A DNA stretch of 24,097 nucleotides from a virus. Of this stretch, positions 1-18,142 are shown in pieces; the first letter of the stretch is position 1, and every line of letters begins with the position of its first letter. A program made the position numbers and the translations under genes. The stretch is taken from the IMG/VR virus record IMGVR_UViG_3300042261_000978, positions 1 through 24,097 of that record. The stretch is one strand, 5' to 3'. The notes beneath the pieces are model-generated. The model was not told the origin of the DNA and did not search any database. It was given only the letters and a program-made list of their open reading frames with translations.

Positions 1-243
1 CAACTTCGTTATCATAATCTTCGCAGTCTCGATGAGCGTATCTACTTGGCACCCATTCACTCCGTGTTCTTTGATAGGGCCGTTTTGGATGCGAAAGCTA
101 ATGCAGTTCATGCGGTCCGTGATGTTGATTGGATACTCATCACGCATTTTATCAAAATCATCCCATGACATTCCTTCTGGTTTGTCGCGCACAACCTTGA
201 ATCCACCAATCTCAGTCAAACCCTTCAAAGTTTCCAAAGCCAT
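1..243 (-). CDS. Acb2/Tad1-like small protein, candidate nucleotide sponge (partial)
   Basis: The reading frame opens at an ATG (241-243) behind a GAGGAG ribosome site and stays open for 81 codons to the left edge, so the C-terminus is missing. The visible residues include a short N-terminal segment with GGFKVVRDKPEGMSWDDF, then ITDRMNCISFRIQNGPIKE and GVNGCQVDTLIETAK, with the beginning of a long helix. From memory, this resembles phage proteins assigned to the Acb2/Tad1 hairpin-domain family, which bind and sequester the cyclic nucleotides or cyclic ADP-ribose signals of CBASS and Thoeris defence. No search could be run, and the diagnostic C-terminal helix lies outside the window. It is the last visible gene of the leftward early operon, a normal place for counter-defence genes. 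Alternatively it is an uncharacterised early protein. The gene itself is certain and the function is only probable. Confidence 0.6.
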   Translation of the reverse strand, partial: MALETLKGLTEIGGFKVVRDKPEGMSWDDFDKMRDEYPINITDRMNCISFRIQNGPIKEHGVNGCQVDTLIETAKIMITKL

Positions 244-248
244 ATCTA

Positions 249-368
249 TCACTCCTCAGTTAAAATCGTCCACAGGGCGAATGCCCCAAGTACAGCCAGC
301 ATCAGCACAATGCCTCCGCCAATGATGCCAAAAATCCACATAATCCAAGCCGGAATTGTGATGGTCAT
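249..368 (-). CDS. 39-residue single-span membrane protein
   Basis: This frame runs from ATG at 366-368 to TGA at 249-251. It is preceded by a strong AAGGAGG ribosome site, and the start overlaps the stop of the upstream gene by four bases (ATGA). Nearly the whole product (about residues 5-35) is hydrophobic, with the glycine-rich stretch FGIIGGGIVLMLAVLGAFAL and a short acidic tail ILTEE. That predicts one inner-membrane span. It sits between a hypothetical gene and the Acb2/Tad1-like gene, whose own ribosome site lies over its stop codon. Its function is unknown. Small phage membrane proteins of this type can be superinfection-exclusion, lysis-timing or defence-modulating peptides, but nothing in the sequence decides this. 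The overlaps and ribosome sites at both ends make translation very likely. Confidence 0.7.
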   Translation of the reverse strand: MTITIPAWIMWIFGIIGGGIVLMLAVLGAFALWTILTEE

Positions 369-649
369 TTCAAAGCCTCCTTGCAATCCCATTTCCTCAC
401 GGCTTCCTGAGCTGTCTCTAATGCATTGCCGTAGCCTTCATACGGCATGAACTCTCCGCAGCACCAGTGTTCGTCGTCCCATGCCTTTGCGAGTTCTCTG
501 ACCAATGCGCGAGCTTCGTCGCGTTCCTTCACAACTATTTCATATTCGTTGTACTCAATCAAATCTCCTTCCGGGTCTGGTGTAATTGAAACCGGAGAGA
601 ACACGTTGAATGGATTTAACTCTGACCTATATCTCACTCCCTCATTCAT
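365..649 (-). CDS. Hypothetical 94-residue early protein
   Basis: A leftward gene of the early operon that I do not recognise. An upstream GTG at 653-655 is possible, but ATG at 647-649 is preferred because GGAGG lies five bases upstream of it. The N-terminal third is beta-like and acidic (GDLIEYNEYEIVV). A charged helix follows (KERDEARALVRELAKAW), then DDEHWCCGEF and another helix ending in WDCKEALK. The helix-CC-helix arrangement resembles small phage proteins with a terminal helical repeat, but no catalytic motif is seen. It overlaps the upstream zinc-finger gene by eight bases and the downstream membrane peptide by four, so it is translationally coupled to both. Confidence 0.75.
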   Translation of the reverse strand: MNEGVRYRSELNPFNVFSPVSITPDPEGDLIEYNEYEIVVKERDEARALVRELAKAWDDEHWCCGEFMPYEGYGNALETAQEAVRKWDCKEALK

Positions 650-2063: not shown

Positions 2064-2319
2064 GTTGTTCTCTCCAATCTCTGTGGTGGACAAGGATAAG
2101 TGATGTGAGCTTTTGACGTTCTCGTTCTGTCAGCTCTTCGTGAGCAGTGGCAATGATGCTTTGGACTTTCTCAGCGTTGGGAAACTTCTTCGCGAGCTTC
2201 CAGGAGCTAACGGACTGCCGGGAACATCGCAGAGCAGCGGCGGCGTTTTCATCGCCCTGCTGTCGGCAGATTTCGCTCACATAAAAGATTGCCAACCGCT
2301 GCACAAAAGTTCCAATCAT
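1966..2319 (-). CDS. Helix-turn-helix protein, Cro/Bet-neighbour type
   Basis: This frame starts at ATG 2317-2319, giving a one-base TGATG overlap with the stop of the bet gene. A GTG one codon earlier is less likely. Residues around 22-52 contain GDENAAAALRCSRQSVSSWK, a plausible helix-turn-helix, so it may bind DNA. Residues after about 85 are arginine- and proline-rich (RYPRSRRARSIRRAV) and lie in the region that also encodes the next gene in another frame. That suggests the tail is a loose extension evolved by overprinting. Its target is unknown. As the gene after bet it could regulate the operon. Confidence 0.6.
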   Translation of the reverse strand: MIGTFVQRLAIFYVSEICRQQGDENAAAALRCSRQSVSSWKLAKKFPNAEKVQSIIATAHEELTERERQKLTSLILVHHRDWREQHAIRYPRSRRARSIRRAVTPVPGAPGADSSNP

Positions 2320-3110
2320 CACACATCCTGCACGCTTTGGAGTTCTCGTAGAAACTGGTCAAGCACGGCGTAAACGTCGGCCTTGGTCGCAGGGATTCGG
2401 TCGATGAGCAGGCTCATGATCTTCTGTGCGTGGGTGCGCTTCCACTCGGCGGGCACCACTGCTTCAGCACACCAGGCCGAGACGAGGGCGAGGTGGTCTG
2501 GATTGCCGCGCTGAAAGAGCACGGGGCCGGGGGGCAGAACTTCAGGCTCGGGCTGTGGTTGCCTTCTGGGTTGAACAGGTGGTAGTTTTTCATCAGCCTG
2601 TTCCATCTCTTCTGTGCCGTACAGACCACTTAATTCCTGAGGGAATGCCTTGCGTAAAGCGAGCATTTCGCTGCATTTTGCGGCCATTACATCAGGCATT
2701 TTCTTCCATATCGGCGTCCCTGCATCGTAGGCATCGAGGCGAGCGACAGCCCACATAGGCTCCTTGAAGTCAGTCCTCAACACACCAACCTTCGCAGCGA
2801 CTGGTGGCTTCTTCTGAAGCCAAACGTCTGTCCACACGCCATCATCTCCACACCAGAAGGGGCCGATCTGCCCAGCATATTTTCCAGTCCTTTCGGCAAT
2901 CAAGCGAAAGCCATCGATGCTGATTTGAATCGTGCGCTTCCCCCCACGATCAATCGAGTAGATTTGTCGGGAAATCGCATCCAGGCCCGTGCGCTTGCAT
3001 TGAGCAAGGAAAAACTTCAGTTCTATATCTGATGAGCCTTTTGCTACTGTGTTCTTGATAAGCGTGATTTCTTCTTCTGACAATTCCCTAGTGACTAATG
3101 CTGTGCTCAT
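2319..3110 (-). CDS. bet: Redbeta/RecT-family single-strand annealing protein
   Basis: A 263-residue protein of the Red-beta type. It binds single-stranded DNA and anneals complementary strands in phage recombination and end repair. The family core is clear: [19 protein letters not shown], then the block [19 protein letters not shown], then [19 protein letters not shown], and [20 protein letters not shown] leading to GLYGTEEM. A proline-rich linker (about residues 175-195) leads to a small C-terminal domain, where members of this family contact partner nuclease or SSB proteins. The length is normal for the family. The start has AAAGG upstream and overlaps the previous gene by four bases. No exonuclease gene lies next to it, so its partner is either outside the window or the VRR-NUC protein encoded at 6323-6772. 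Confidence 0.93.
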
Positions 3111-3425: not shown

Positions 3426-3617
3426 ATGGACGATGATAAAGACGTCATCACGACGAAAGAGCTATGTGAGAGGCTGAAAATATCGAGACAAACGCTACAT
3501 GCATGGCGGTCGCAGGATATTATGCCGCGTCCGCTGGCATCACCGGGTAAGCGCGGGATGTTACGCTGGAGATGGTCTGAGATTGAGAACTGGCTTCGTA
3601 GCAGCGATAGGCGGTGA
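3426..3617 (+). CDS. AlpA/MerR-like helix-turn-helix regulator
   Basis: A 63-residue rightward protein. The start ATG 3426 is chosen over an upstream ATG at 3399 because AAGGGG sits five bases before it. The sequence VITTKELCERLKISRQTLHA is a clear helix-turn-helix. It is followed by MPRPLASPGKRGMLRWRWSE, IENWL, the wing and final helix of the AlpA/HTH_17 family. Members are small DNA-binding regulators or excisionases. As the first gene of the right operon, directly at the divergent promoter, it is the obvious candidate to bind the inverted repeat. Its stop overlaps the GTG start of the initiator gene. Confidence 0.8.
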   Translation: MDDDKDVITTKELCERLKISRQTLHAWRSQDIMPRPLASPGKRGMLRWRWSEIENWLRSSDRR

Positions 3618-4783
3618 ACGTGGCATATGCACAGGTAAACACAGAAGTGTTCGACAACCTGAAGACCAAAAAAGCTGCTCGTGACCTGGGCGTCACACCC
3701 GTGTGCTTCGTCGGACACATGGCCAGTCTTTGGTGCTGGTGCTGGTTCAATGCACCAGATGGGGCTCTCGACGGCATTGATCCAATTGATATTGCTGACG
3801 CAGCTCGGTGGCCGGGGGACCCCGAACGGTTTTTCGCAGTGCTGGTCAATCGTGAGTGGATTGTGGTCGAAAATGACCAGATTATGATCCATGACTGGTT
3901 CGAACACACGGGCAAGATACTGTTATCACATGAAAGAACACTGAAACGGAAAAAGAAACATCGTGACAAGAACGTCTCTCGGGACGTCTCTCGGGACGTC
4001 TCTCGGGACGTCTCTCGGGACGTCTCTCGGGACGCCGAAAAACCATCCATATTAGATCAGATCAGATCAGATCAAAACAAAATACCAAATACATCCCCTT
4101 CGGGGAGCGAAAACGCTTGCGAGGTGCTTCCGGCTGTCGCCGGTTCGCCCTCGCTGCCCGACTTCGAAGGGAATGCGAAAGAGCCGCTTAAGGACGTCCA
4201 ATGCATCGAACCCACACAGACCCACCAACCGACCCGGAAAAAACGAACCACGGGCAAATCTGACGCCATTGCTTCGGTCGTTCAGGAGCCCAGCACGGCT
4301 ATCGCGCCGGTGATGGGGGAACGCACGAAAAAGAAGCACGACGACAAGACGGACGGGTCGAAGGTGTGGGATGCGTATTCAGCTTCGATGCAACGACACT
4401 GGGGGATGACGCCTCCGCGCAGCGCGAAGACCTCGGCGCTGGCGAAACAGCTTGTCGATCTGGTTGGGGTAGATCAGGCGACACGGATTGCGACGTACTA
4501 CCCTTCACGGCGGGATCGGTACTATGTGGCCAAAGGCCACCCATTCGGCATTGTCGTGTCTGACCACATGAAATTACTAAGAGAAATAACGAGTGGATAC
4601 AAGATGTGCGAAGAGATCGTGACGCATTTCGTTGAAGGAGAACAACGCGAAGAATCGAAAAAACTGCATGAAAACGAGGTTATCGTGAATCCATTACTTA
4701 TGGATGAAGACGAATACATTGAATATCGAAAAAGAAAAGAGCTTGTAGAAGTGCAATATGATATCAAACTTATGGAGGGATAA
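3614..4783 (+). CDS. Phage replication initiator with internal repeat region
   Basis: A 389-residue protein starting at GTG 3614 in a GTGA overlap. The N-terminal part (about residues 1-115) has the winged-helix style of phage replisome organisers (helical regions, then FNAPDGALDGIDPIDIADAA, then VNREWIVVENDQIMIHDWFE). Residues about 120-140 are five copies of the tetrapeptide VSRD, encoded by 12-bp DNA repeats. A long, charged, low-complexity linker (140-255) follows. A second folded domain (from about DGSKVWDAYSASMQRHW to the end) resembles the C-terminal domains that recruit a helicase or loader. It presumably binds the origin inside its own gene and loads the replicative helicase with the product of the next gene. 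The family assignment is by architecture and context. Confidence 0.75.
   Translation: MNVAYAQVNTEVFDNLKTKKAARDLGVTPVCFVGHMASLWCWCWFNAPDGALDGIDPIDIADAARWPGDPERFFAVLVNREWIVVENDQIMIHDWFEHTGKILLSHERTLKRKKKHRDKNVSRDVSRDVSRDVSRDVSRDAEKPSILDQIRSDQNKIPNTSPSGSENACEVLPAVAGSPSLPDFEGNAKEPLKDVQCIEPTQTHQPTRKKRTTGKSDAIASVVQEPSTAIAPVMGERTKKKHDDKTDGSKVWDAYSASMQRHWGMTPPRSAKTSALAKQLVDLVGVDQATRIATYYPSRRDRYYVAKGHPFGIVVSDHMKLLREITSGYKMCEEIVTHFVEGEQREESKKLHENEVIVNPLLMDEDEYIEYRKRKELVEVQYDIKLMEG
3971..4030 (+). repeat. Five tandem 12-bp repeats (candidate iterons)
   Basis: Five head-to-tail copies of GACGTCTCTCGG. The first copy differs only in its first base, and the others are identical. Each unit includes the palindrome GACGTC. 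They lie inside the initiator gene, as the iterons of lambda lie inside gene O, and are in frame, giving (VSRD)5. Perfect identity at the DNA level, including wobble positions, fits either recent slippage or selection as protein-binding sites. Confidence 0.85.
4055..4074. repeat. Four tandem GATCA repeats, AT-rich candidate unwinding element
   Basis: Four exact copies of GATCA, preceded by CCATCCATATTA and followed by the A-rich AAACAAAATACCAAATACA. The five-base period does not match the codon period, so the repetition is not explained by protein repetition. GATC is the Dam target. With the 12-bp repeats just upstream, this looks like the AT-rich opening element of a phage origin, roughly 3971-4095. 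Confidence 0.6.
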
Positions 4784-5290
4784 ATGTACATATCAGAAGC
4801 TGAATTTATGGAAAGCTGCAGAATCCTGGCAGACGCCTGCAGCCGACCTTTCTCAGAGAAATTGTCACTGTACTGGTACAAGAAAATCAGAGTCGCTGAC
4901 GCCGGAAAAGTCGTTGCTGCTATGAATATCTTTGTGACCCGAGGCAAATGGCCATCTCTCGAAGACCTCATGGAGGAGGTCGGCGTGGTGCCACCGATGG
5001 ACCGAAAAGAAAAAGAGGCAGTTGAATCAAGAGAACGGAATACACCGAAACCAGACACAAACGACGAATACCACGATGCTCGCACGTCCTACGGAGATAT
5101 GGTTTTCAGCATCAAAGAACGGCAGGGTGAAAACGCGAGGGCCAATCGCTGGAGGCAAAAGCTCATTGAGCTTGGGTGGACAATTTACAAAGAATACAAG
5201 TACGAAAATCTGGACGGGATGACCGGTGGGAAAATCAATATGCAAGTGAAAGACCAGCGGACAGTGATACATGCAGAGAGGTGGAAATGA
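4784..5290 (+). CDS. Putative helicase loader (G39P-like N-terminus)
   Basis: A 168-residue protein whose ATG directly follows the initiator stop, with GGAGGG upstream. The first 65 residues (SEAEFMESCRILADACSRP, then LYWYKKI, then VAAMNIFVTRGKWPSLEDLM) match the compact helical pattern of phage helicase loaders and inhibitors such as G39P, in which W-x-P-T/S-x-x-D/E-L ends the domain. The rest is charged and probably flexible, ending in a mixed basic segment. Position behind an initiator supports a loader role. It does not contain a Walker motif, so it is not a DnaC-type ATPase. Moderate confidence in the function, high in the gene. Confidence 0.65.
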   Translation: MYISEAEFMESCRILADACSRPFSEKLSLYWYKKIRVADAGKVVAAMNIFVTRGKWPSLEDLMEEVGVVPPMDRKEKEAVESRERNTPKPDTNDEYHDARTSYGDMVFSIKERQGENARANRWRQKLIELGWTIYKEYKYENLDGMTGGKINMQVKDQRTVIHAERWK

Positions 5291-5538
5291 CCCACATCGA
5301 ATTCATCAGTGCAGAGTGGGCCGGTCCCTGCGTCGAGATGCGGCACACAATCGAAAAGGTAGCACCGGAGTTCCCAGGCGTTCAGTGGCGGCACCTCGAG
5401 GCTGAGGAGCTTGCAGTGTGCCCCGCTGCAGTGCCTGTTTTGCGACTCGTGGTGGACGGGAAAAGGGTGAGGGAAACGGTCGGGAATCAGAGTGAACGGG
5501 TGGTACGGGAGTTTTTTGAGGCTGCGAATGAGAAATGA
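5287..5538 (+). CDS. Thioredoxin-fold protein with WAGPC active site
   Basis: An 83-residue protein. Its ATG overlaps the stop of the previous gene (ATGA), and AGAGG lies upstream. The start IEFISAEWAGPCVEMRHTIE follows the thioredoxin beta-strand and active-site helix. VCPAAVPVLRLVVDGKRV matches the strand with the conserved cis-proline, and RVVREFF forms the last helix. The canonical WCGPC is WAGPC here, so the first, nucleophilic cysteine is replaced by alanine. It cannot act as a normal dithiol oxidoreductase. It may be a binding module, like the thioredoxin subunit of T7 polymerase, or a one-cysteine monothiol enzyme. The fold call is good and the role unknown. Confidence 0.75.
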   Translation: MTHIEFISAEWAGPCVEMRHTIEKVAPEFPGVQWRHLEAEELAVCPAAVPVLRLVVDGKRVRETVGNQSERVVREFFEAANEK

Positions 5539-6322: not shown

Positions 6323-6772
6323 TCAAGAAATGATTGGAATTCCTTGAACCTCAGCAGCGGCTCCGCAACGGCAGGTCATCCAGTCCCAGAGAGAATCGGT
6401 GCCCACTACCACGGCCACGCGAGCACCCGCACGCTGCATCGCTTGGAGCTGCGAGAGCTGTGATTGCGAGAGTCTCCCACCAGGTGCTTTCACCTCCAGG
6501 CCGAACGTTTGGCCATTCAGAACAGCAAGCACGTCTGGCATCCCCTGCATCTCTGAGGCTCCTATGGCGAGCTGACCCTTCCTGTGCAGAAGCTTCCCGC
6601 CTCCCTCGATGCGGGCCACCCAGCAGCCGCGAAAGCGCAGGAGGCCAATCACAGCACGCATGATTGGCGCTTCATGCACTGCCGGGTCACGACGATTCCA
6701 CGGGGCAGGCAACAGCCAGCCCGGTTCTGTGATTCGGCGTTTCGTCACCATCGTTGAAAAATCTACAGTCAT
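6323..6772 (-). CDS. VRR-NUC domain nuclease
   Basis: A 149-residue protein consisting almost entirely of a VRR-NUC domain, a PD-(D/E)XK nuclease fold that cleaves branched or junction DNA. Seen in order: the helix PIMRAVIGLLRFRGCWVARI, GGGK with a charged stretch, GMPDVLAVLNG carrying the catalytic Asp, FGLEVKAPGG with the Glu-x-Lys pair, then LSQSQLSQLQAMQRAGARVA, in which the glutamine and helix are conserved, and VVVGTDSL. The length matches phage VRR-NUC proteins. The start has GAGGTGAT upstream. Its likely role is resolving replication or recombination intermediates, possibly together with the Bet protein. Confidence 0.88.
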   Translation of the reverse strand: MTVDFSTMVTKRRITEPGWLLPAPWNRRDPAVHEAPIMRAVIGLLRFRGCWVARIEGGGKLLHRKGQLAIGASEMQGMPDVLAVLNGQTFGLEVKAPGGRLSQSQLSQLQAMQRAGARVAVVVGTDSLWDWMTCRCGAAAEVQGIPIIS

Positions 6773-14518: not shown

Positions 14519-17500
14519 ATGGGCAAGCAAATCAGTGTGACGAAATTCCGCGGTCTCGTGACGAATCCAAACGCTTTGACCACAGCCGATGGAGCGATGG
14601 AGCAGGCAAACAACGTCACGATAAGCCAGCCCGACCTCATCACGAAGCGTCGTGGATTCAGAACGGTGTGCAGGTCGGACCTCAACTACATTTCGTTCGG
14701 TCTGTACTCGTTTCTTGGAACTGTTTTTGAGGGACACGCAACTCTGAGCTTAAACGCAACAGATGTTGATGTGTCGGTGGTTTCTCCGGTGTCGAGAGCG
14801 TCAACGGCTCTCGATGCTTTCCGGTTCAGTTTGACTCTTTCGGCAACAAATTACGTGTGGCGTCCATTGGTTTCTGTTGATTCGTATGCAGCCAACACAA
14901 GCTGGGAATGCTCGACAAAGTATGAGATTAGAAAGCTCTCCGGTGCAGGTGAGATAAACTGGACCACGTTCAGAGCTGTTCCCGTGGTGATGGGGGACAC
15001 GATAACGGGGAACTTCATGTGGGCATATGACCATGATGCCTTGGGTCGGTTCAACACCACTGTGGGCGGTGCATTCGGGATGATTCCGTTTGGCGCTCGT
15101 GCTCATGTGCTTTTCCATACCACATCGCCCTACAAGAGCTACATCATTGCACACGAGGCGTTCACGAGCATTTCATCGAAAGTATCGTCACGTTCCGGGG
15201 TGCCGGAGGCGTTGGATTGCGATGCCATCCCTGGTCCTGATGCTTTGACTGACAGATACGCCGGGCCGATCAATCCGAACTGTCAGGTCTCGTATCGAGT
15301 CGTTTTCGTGAAGAGATATTCAGACGGTACTGAGGTATTTGGTGCGCCATCGCCAATCTGTACTGTGGTGAACTCGAAGAGACCATGCACCTCTGTGACG
15401 GACCAGACCACAGAGTGGCGGTTCAATGCTCCAGTGAACGACATTGAAGGGAACAGCTACGGTGGGAATGAGTCGGTCTATCTGTACTCTGTGACAGGAA
15501 CAGGCGCCACTCCCCCGTCCGATGGGACGAGCTACCTCATTACCACAAACACGACCACAAGCTACTTTCAGGTGCTCAAGACTGCATTCCCTGCAGGATT
15601 CACACCAACTGGATGCTCATGGAGCACAGCAGCGACCGGATACATCAACGCAACTATTCCGTCGAATTTGGCATCGACTGACAACATGTTTGCGCGTTTG
15701 TATCGGACGACCTGTTCTATAGATGAAACGGCGTCACCTACTCCAAGGTTCTTCCTCGTGGAAGAAAAGAGCCTTGCAAGCGTGTCTAATTTCATTTCGT
15801 TTGTCGATTCGATGACTGACGATGTGTTGCAGTTTCAGGAGGAGCTGTACACAAACGAAGACACACAGGACGGTGAAGCGCAAGCGGCGTATAAATATCC
15901 AGAAGCCGTGGACAGCATTGCCTCATACAAAAACTGTGTGTTCTTGGCGAATCCCAAGGCCAAGGACTATTACGATGTCACAATCATCAAAGATCCAACC
16001 TATGCTACCCCGTTGGATTTCAAGATTACGTTCGGTGTGGCTGTCAATTACACAGGACAAATTGAGGGTAATGGTTCTGTCGGAAACTCTCAGCACATTT
16101 GGTATGTGTCAGCATTTGCAGCACCGAATGTGACGCTTACGGTGACTGGGCAGCCATATCCATTGGTGGCGGCGGCGAATTCAACTCTGGTTAATGGTTC
16201 TGTCATCGAGGTTTATGAGAACAATGCTGGAATCACTGCGGGCAGGTACACTGTCACAGGAAGCACAGGGACCACAATCACTTTTGCAATGTCGGGTTCT
16301 GCAACTGTTGGCAAAAGGCTCTCCTTGGCAAGGTATGCTGAAGGCAGCTTCACGCAGTTCAGCGCGGACACAAGCGCTGCTGCTGGTGACTATTGGCGGT
16401 ATGGAATCTCTTTTGCACTGCAGAAAACGGCAGAAATGATTGCCAAGTGTGTGAACCGAAAGGCATACACAAACACCACAGTGAAAGCGAATGGTAATCT
16501 TGCAAGCACAGTCGGGCTCATGACGTTTGCCACCAGGGATTATCTGGAAGTTGGAGAGACTGAAACGCTTGGACTGTTCTCAGACAGCGTTGGAACTGTG
16601 AGCTTTTATCCTGCGCTTCCATCCATTGTCACTCCTCAGAGAAATGCTGTTTTGGCTGTCTCTCGTCTCGGTGAGCCAGAGTCTTTCCCCTTACTGAATC
16701 GAATCAATGTGGGTTCTCAAAGTGAGACGATTCTCGGAATGTCCACAACCCGAGATTCACTCATCGTCATCAAGTCGGATGGTGTGTTCCGCGTTAACGG
16801 TGATTCACCACAGAACTTCGTTTCAGCAGCCATTGACACCACAGTGATATGCATGGCTCCAGGTTCGATATTTCCGTTGAACAACACGGTTTATTTCCTT
16901 TCGAATCAGGGAGTGGTTCAGGTTTCAGACACTGGTGTTCGCATTATTTCGATGGCCATTGAGAATCTGTTGCTCCCGGTGATTGGGAACGCAACGGCGA
17001 TGAGTCAGACTCATGCCTATGCTTCTGAGGCAGACAGAACATACTTCTTGAGCACGTTCGACCCAGATGGAAACCGTGTCACATATGCCTACAATTACAT
17101 GACAGAGACATGGACAACATCAGATGAACATGCGTTTTCTGGCGTCAGTTTGCCAAATGGAGACACCTACATTCTGTCCACCGACCAGGTGACGATCAAA
17201 AAGCAGAACAGAGGCTTTCTTCCAAGCGACTACTCGCAGAATCCGGACAGTTGCATCATCTGGACAGGAGTTCGGGCCACAGGTTCAAACCTGCCAGGCG
17301 AGAAAAAGGCAAGCGTGACATTCCTGCAGGCGCATGGGCTCACGGCGGGGAATACAGTCACATGCTCGGCATACCTCTCAAGCTGCACCAACAGAATTGC
17401 GGCCGCGAGCATCGCGGTGACTGTGGTTCTCACGGTTGATTCTGTGACCTCGCCAACGGTGGCGGTGTTCGACATCACAAACCTGCAGGCTGCAGCTCCG

Positions 17501-18142
17501 GTTGGGGCTGACAGTGTGAACCTTGTCTTGAGAGATGCGGATTTGAGCAAGGCGGTGGTGGCCGTGAATTCGGCGGGTGACGCCCCGGTGGTACTGGATG
17601 CTCTCTCGGACAACCTGTTGGTGTTCATCCCGTTCATTCCGGTCATTGAGCGATCTTCCGTGGTGGCTGCGACATACACACCAGATTCCGCCACATGGTT
17701 CTTGCAGCAGGTGACTCTGAGAGATGCAATCCCTGTGGTGGGTGGTCAGGGAGCCATTTGGAAGCGGATCGTGTCTGATGTGGTGATGAGTCCATTGGAC
17801 CAGAGCAGTGAGGACACTCTGAAGCAGTATTCTACCTCTCAGGTGCATTTCAGAAATGACAAATCCTGCTCCAGGATGAAAATTGGGTTCTCAAACGATT
17901 TCACCAATGCCACATCACAAACAAGCTGGGTCGCTCCCGGATTCACGGGGCCGACCAGCACGAGAAAGTACATATCAGGCCGTCAAAACGTGCTTCGCAC
18001 CTATGTTCCTTTGGACTGTTCTGTGGGAACATGGATACAGCCAAGAATGAATCACGAAGTAGCGTGCGAGCCTTGGGAGGTTCAAATTGTGAGCGTTCAA
18101 GTGGAATCTGAAACGGACGTGACCACACGAGGTGAGGCATGA
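14519..18142 (+). CDS. Large tail nozzle/hub-like beta-propeller protein
   Basis: A 1207-residue protein beginning just after the adaptor stop, with GAGGGG upstream of its ATG. The N-terminus (KFRGLVTNPNALTTADGAME, QANNVTISQPDLITKRRGF) has the motif pattern of podovirus nozzle or tail-stabilisation proteins, where a NPN...G-x-x-x-x-A-N-N-x-x-I...RRGF block opens a beta-propeller. Blades continue around residues 460-480 and 700-890 (RLGEPESFPLLNR, TTRDSLIVIKSDGVFRVNGD, LNNTVYFLSNQGVVQVSDTG). Beta-sandwich-like insertions occur near 530-620 and 920-1010. It would close the tail channel below the adaptor. The size is large for the family, fitting extra domains. Confidence 0.8.
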   Translation: MGKQISVTKFRGLVTNPNALTTADGAMEQANNVTISQPDLITKRRGFRTVCRSDLNYISFGLYSFLGTVFEGHATLSLNATDVDVSVVSPVSRASTALDAFRFSLTLSATNYVWRPLVSVDSYAANTSWECSTKYEIRKLSGAGEINWTTFRAVPVVMGDTITGNFMWAYDHDALGRFNTTVGGAFGMIPFGARAHVLFHTTSPYKSYIIAHEAFTSISSKVSSRSGVPEALDCDAIPGPDALTDRYAGPINPNCQVSYRVVFVKRYSDGTEVFGAPSPICTVVNSKRPCTSVTDQTTEWRFNAPVNDIEGNSYGGNESVYLYSVTGTGATPPSDGTSYLITTNTTTSYFQVLKTAFPAGFTPTGCSWSTAATGYINATIPSNLASTDNMFARLYRTTCSIDETASPTPRFFLVEEKSLASVSNFISFVDSMTDDVLQFQEELYTNEDTQDGEAQAAYKYPEAVDSIASYKNCVFLANPKAKDYYDVTIIKDPTYATPLDFKITFGVAVNYTGQIEGNGSVGNSQHIWYVSAFAAPNVTLTVTGQPYPLVAAANSTLVNGSVIEVYENNAGITAGRYTVTGSTGTTITFAMSGSATVGKRLSLARYAEGSFTQFSADTSAAAGDYWRYGISFALQKTAEMIAKCVNRKAYTNTTVKANGNLASTVGLMTFATRDYLEVGETETLGLFSDSVGTVSFYPALPSIVTPQRNAVLAVSRLGEPESFPLLNRINVGSQSETILGMSTTRDSLIVIKSDGVFRVNGDSPQNFVSAAIDTTVICMAPGSIFPLNNTVYFLSNQGVVQVSDTGVRIISMAIENLLLPVIGNATAMSQTHAYASEADRTYFLSTFDPDGNRVTYAYNYMTETWTTSDEHAFSGVSLPNGDTYILSTDQVTIKKQNRGFLPSDYSQNPDSCIIWTGVRATGSNLPGEKKASVTFLQAHGLTAGNTVTCSAYLSSCTNRIAAASIAVTVVLTVDSVTSPTVAVFDITNLQAAAPVGADSVNLVLRDADLSKAVVAVNSAGDAPVVLDALSDNLLVFIPFIPVIERSSVVAATYTPDSATWFLQQVTLRDAIPVVGGQGAIWKRIVSDVVMSPLDQSSEDTLKQYSTSQVHFRNDKSCSRMKIGFSNDFTNATSQTSWVAPGFTGPTSTRKYISGRQNVLRTYVPLDCSVGTWIQPRMNHEVACEPWEVQIVSVQVESETDVTTRGEA

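Follow-up and report, generated by a model that had tools for sequence, protein, structure and literature searches.

The virus record analysed here, all 24,097 bases of which form the window, begins inside a gene, and the question is whether that cut-off gene encodes a protein with which the phage disarms nucleotide-signalled defence. Most likely it is a phage sponge gene of the Tad1 family, from a diverged branch, of which the 5′ two thirds are present. We put at roughly 80% the probability that it encodes a Tad1-family sponge of a tailed phage, whose hairpin would form a hexamer trapping the nucleotide signals of Thoeris or CBASS.

The gene is an 81-codon open frame on the minus strand (1–243) that reads from 243 to 1 and runs off the left edge with its 3′ end open, as the original prediction had described, and both motifs quoted there, ITDRMNCISFRIQNGPIKE and GVNGCQVDTLIETAK, are present in the fragment. 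Its start is the ATG at 243, read directly from the sequence together with a GAGGAG ribosome-binding site (252–257, minus strand) ending 8 bases before it, and the MALETL with which the fragment begins is common to dozens of relatives. Residues 1–46 (106–243, minus strand) make up an N-terminal module with the signature MALETLKG, delimited by sequence comparisons and by an AlphaFold model of residues 1–62, and residues 50–81 (1–96, minus strand) comprise the start of a hairpin part, with a IQNGPIKEHGVNG lead-in and most of a first long helix. The latter assignment draws on an HMM alignment of residues 51–73 and on an ortholog model that superposes on CbTad1 from residue 51. Because the best full-length relative (L002) has 122 residues against the 81 visible, about 41 residues of the protein, the second hairpin helix included, would lie beyond the edge. 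Since the window is the whole virus record, that assembly offers no sequence for the missing end, and two exact-pattern scans turned up no overlapping contig from which the gene could be completed.

A scan of viral contigs yielded 40 relatives, of which L002 is the closest (78% identical over all 81 residues), and the branch, marked by the MALETLKG signature, occurs on about 70 viral contigs; its full-length orthologs have 113–137 residues and end in a Tad1-like hairpin. The first set of relatives is biased for conservation of MALETLKG, that octamer having itself been a search pattern, and in a second scan with hairpin patterns alone 46 of 79 loci began exactly with MALETL or MALESL, the remainder being mostly close variants of MALETL, cut off, or short at the N-terminus. 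A tblastn search of phage records with the fragment found nothing, no full-length branch member occurred among 50,697 phage records, and a full-length ortholog found nothing in plasmids. One branch member (L029, 4001–4354) has a C-terminus that lacks the R..VEG tail and is possibly frameshifted or decayed, and another (L042) comes from a 4.1-kb contig, assigned to a Parachlamydia bin, that may be a stray phage contig.

Pfam and NCBIfam matched no family in the 81-residue fragment, which by itself would permit a chance resemblance with no relationship to Tad1. That reading is vanishingly improbable and is already ruled out by profile, shuffle and fold results. An HMM built from other Tad1-type sequences, with the branch left out, gave the fragment 27.7 bits, compared with 10.8 for the best of 2000 shuffles, and no other comparable score in the six frames of the window. 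A profile built from the MALETLKG branch alone, without canonical Tad1-like sequences, matched the solved CmTad1 (8kbb) with an E-value of 1.7e-17 and CbTad1 (7uav) with one of 5.6e-7; in hhalign, the branch aligned to a canonical Tad1 alignment headed by the SBSphiJ7 protein annotated as Tad1 with an E-value of 1e-33 and 38% identity over 74 columns. Moreover, phrog_2428 picks up the fragment (E 3.6e-4) as well as its orthologs (E 1e-17 to 1e-20) and SBSphiJ7 Tad1 (E 8e-47). The Pfam hairpin model Acb2_Tad1_hairpin (PF24729; curated cut-off, 27 bits) catches the branch in part, being above the cut-off in relatives L005 (31.5 bits) and L038 (28.3 bits), below it in L012 (25.5 bits), L090 (24.3 bits) and L064 (15.8 bits), and without a match in the closest orthologs, L002 and L131. 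The proposal that the gene belongs to the Acb2/Tad1 family, made from the letters of the fragment, was thus borne out when full-length relatives were searched by profile and by structure, and the profile search suggested as its check does find them to resemble Tad1.

The fold agrees with this assignment. An AlphaFold model of the ortholog L002, built with 37 sequences, has a pLDDT of 93, and in its two-helix part it matches the solved Tad1s: residues 51–122 superpose on CbTad1 with a Z of 10.9 and an rmsd of 1.5 Å over 72 residues (VIA-align), which answers the structural check that had been proposed against Tad1; adding the N-terminal part spoils the fit (rmsd 5.0). CmTad1 and CbTad1 also occupy the top Foldseek ranks for this model, with probability 1.00. 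As the hairpin is helical, it is the sequence evidence that decides, and not the fold match alone. Like CmTad1 (PDB 8kbb, 8kbc, 8kbd), to which identity is 34% over the part aligned by Foldseek, the branch has a hairpin with a QxGPIKExGxNG lead-in, REN and an R..R-(V/I)EG tail; unlike it, the branch has an N-terminal part unrelated in sequence, L-N in place of F90-Q91, a loop one residue shorter and I or M in place of R86. CbTad1 (PDB 7uav, 7uaw, 8smd) has the same hairpin fold, with a weaker profile match than CmTad1 and N-terminal residues that align poorly. The Tad1 of Bacillus phage SBSphiJ7, 38% identical over the hairpin part and matched by the same PHROG, differs in having a longer, canonical-type N-terminal part with the invariant histidine. 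The only confident full-length match among those listed was a 135-residue phage protein in BFVD (A0A516MPI8; TM 0.86 over 134 columns), at 31% sequence identity; the architecture is therefore not unique to metagenomes and is already among public predicted structures.

These comparisons also narrow the original family call, which stands for Tad1 and falls for Acb2, as the hairpin, with its GPIKE-GVNG lead-in, resembles those of solved Tad1s. Were the gene Acb2-type, its product would bind cyclic nucleotides only and its N-terminal part would be an unrelated accessory. The absence of the canonical Tad1 N-terminal module, a Pfam hairpin domain that spans both families and the existence of short versions of about 80–88 residues that have no N-terminal module (L061, L112, L119) would all suit such a protein. 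Nonetheless, every solved-structure match named as a sponge is a Tad1, by sequence and by fold, and each column of the IQNGPIKE-GVNG lead-in lines up with canonical Tad1s. Acb2 itself is a short protein (94 residues in PaMx41) of one short N-terminal helix and two long antiparallel helices (PMC12043709), an architecture unlike that of the branch orthologs, with their 113–137 residues and β-containing N-terminal part. We consider an Acb2-type protein quite improbable and take the gene to be Tad1-type.

What sets the branch apart is, in the first place, its N-terminal part. The suggestion that the roughly 40 residues before the hairpin are an extension did not hold, as no length has been added: canonical Tad1s have about 40–70 residues there and the window protein about 45. 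The difference lies in their sequence. Canonical Tad1 N-termini tend to share D-E-P-G-x-G-x-A-x-H-x-Y, with the H invariant, whereas the branch begins with MALETLKG and lacks both the canonical motif and the invariant histidine (GGAxHxY), and profile comparison detected no relationship between the two N-terminal parts. The module may have arisen by replacement or by extreme divergence. For the window's own residues 1–62, AlphaFold predicts a strand, a helix and two strands (pLDDT 86), with the modelled elements at 15–18, 39–42 and 47–50 (strands) and 27–36 (helix); Tad1 has an antiparallel β1–β4 sheet preceding its two long helices. When the module alone was compared with solved folds, nothing exceeded a Z of 2.0 and no Tad1 chain was among the matches listed; a splicing endonuclease matched at Z 2.0, which we take as noise. 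Each of the 29 MALETLKG loci carries the module joined to a hairpin, and none has it alone, in a search whose sole pattern was MALETLKG and which diverged modules would escape. The N-terminal part is modular, as the short relatives L061, L112 and L119 have almost none of it. Because the invariant histidine is absent and homology to the canonical part went undetected, pockets built with this module may differ from those of canonical Tad1s.

The second difference is at the tip of the hairpin, within a set of residues otherwise well kept. We compared 43 distinct branch proteins with 19 canonical-type or short Tad1 relatives, using CmTad1 numbering and reading the tail residues in orthologs, the window's own copy ending before the second helix and tail. 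Q62, G64, G73, R117, R121 and G128 are invariant in the 19 relatives and, where present, in the branch, and N72 is likewise common to the 43 branch proteins and the comparison set. R117 is kept in 43 of 43 branch proteins and N100 in 41, and R121, R124, E127 and G128 are retained in all 42 that reach them (position 124 being K in CmTad1 and R in most others). At the tip, by contrast with CmTad1, F90 is replaced by L in 41 of 43 (residue 81 of the window protein is this L), Q91 by N in 39 of 43 and R86 by I or M in all 43, and the loop is one residue shorter. Because some canonical-type and short proteins, such as L043, L044 and L061, share the shorter loop with L, the changed tip is a tendency of the branch in these sequences rather than its private mark. 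The compared tip and tail positions correspond to F82, N92, R109 and R113 of CbTad1, which we take to contact gcADPR; if that is right, the tip change would alter recognition of gcADPR or dinucleotides, with the arginines remaining.

The gene was also said to sit at the end of an early operon of small genes. Of the genes that can be seen, it does come last in its minus-strand block of small genes, but the operon has its actual end outside the window. Directly upstream is a gene for a small, one-helix, membrane-like protein (249–377, minus strand), an open frame with no Pfam or PHROG match whose stop overlaps the leader of the tad1-type gene, and the same block contains a RecT-like single-strand annealing protein gene (2319–3110, minus strand; phrog_2780, E 9.9e-62). 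A RecT-like gene was not found in the contigs of six relatives, most of them short fragments in which its absence is uninformative, and a promoter and terminator scan gave no excess over shuffles. Beyond the block, the plus strand carries genes for replication initiation, terminase, head proteins and a large internal virion protein. The replication-initiation-like protein (3614–4783, plus strand) contains five VSRD repeats in a run, coded by a short tandem DNA repeat; other genes encode a small thioredoxin-like protein with a Pfam match just under the cut-off (5176–5538, plus strand) and a VRR-NUC nuclease domain protein (6323–6772, minus strand; 29.2 bits, above the cut-off). A protein of 1207 residues (14519–18142, plus strand) has an internal-virion-protein match in its second half, which suggests a podovirus-like phage.

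Gene neighbourhoods elsewhere raise the idea that the branch keeps the hairpin fold as a virion or head-assembly protein, its signal binding lost or incidental. The position of the gene varies among relatives. Of 54 non-redundant loci with sufficient flanking sequence, 16 carry the terminase large subunit gene on the same strand and no more than 2.5 kb away, a lower bound, as the terminase models are incomplete, and several copies adjoin portal or head genes, those of L062 and L064 lying between the two. Moreover, phiKZ gp184 (PDB 8y6v chain I) travels in the virion and is injected into the cell (PMC10449902). Its C-terminal hairpin domain is homologous to that of the branch (E 2.9e-9), although at 230 residues, with a long N-terminal part, the protein is unlike the branch. 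The phiKZ Tad1 is itself described as injected and yet as blocking CBASS and Thoeris (review, PMC13282480), so that a virion location is no argument against a sponge. The window's gene lies in the RecT-containing minus-strand block, about 7.5 kb from the terminase, and orthologs still have the conserved residues of the hairpin tail. Loss of the sponge function in favour of a structural role is therefore unlikely in our judgement, and a Tad1-type sponge is preferred. Since the related phiKZ domain is injected from the virion, virion delivery is possible for the head-module copies; it is not indicated for the window's copy.

Terminase adjacency, found in only 16 of 54 loci, was rejected as a general rule or defining trait. 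Loci with the gene near the terminase, often with the portal gene and on the same strand, unlike the window, include L062, L064, L071, L078, L088, L092, L136 and others. In L090, a 79-residue Acb2_Tad1_hairpin protein (1850–2089; 30.6 bits, above the cut-off) directly precedes the Tad1-type gene (2089–2454), giving two hairpin-family genes in tandem just after the terminase, and in L112 the short hairpin gene overlaps the start of the terminase gene by a few bases.

By homology, the function is most likely that of a sponge for the signal nucleotides of CBASS and/or Thoeris. Tad1 has been reported to bind gcADPR and/or cyclic oligonucleotides as a hexamer, and that of SBSphiJ7 was validated as anti-Thoeris (review, PMC12043709). 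The Tad1 hexamer is made up of three dimers and has pockets for gcADPR/CDN, with CTN sites at the trimer interface. In the branch, the two-helix hairpin, led in by GPIKE-GVNG and, in orthologs, ending in an R..R..R-VEG tail, would assemble into a Tad1-like hexamer, which would bind and hold the signals of Thoeris and CBASS, namely gcADPR and cyclic di- and trinucleotides, and with these signals trapped the effectors of both systems would stay off during infection. The changed tip and unrelated N-terminal module suggest a ligand spectrum differing from those of CbTad1 and CmTad1. A bolder version, in which the MALETLKG branch is a separate sponge lineage that combines the Tad1 hairpin with a different N-terminal module and a reshaped tip, captures a different signal nucleotide and in some phages is perhaps produced together with the head genes and travels in the virion, as phiKZ gp184 does, is one we regard as speculative and rather doubtful.

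The branch is most likely a diverged form of Tad1, a kind of sponge already described, that differs in its N-terminal part and tip. Pfam recognises only some of its members, so that it probably escapes surveys of anti-defence genes. Sponge proteins reveal which nucleotide alarms bacteria use, and the changed tip and N-terminal module of this branch are a reasonable place to seek a new ligand range.
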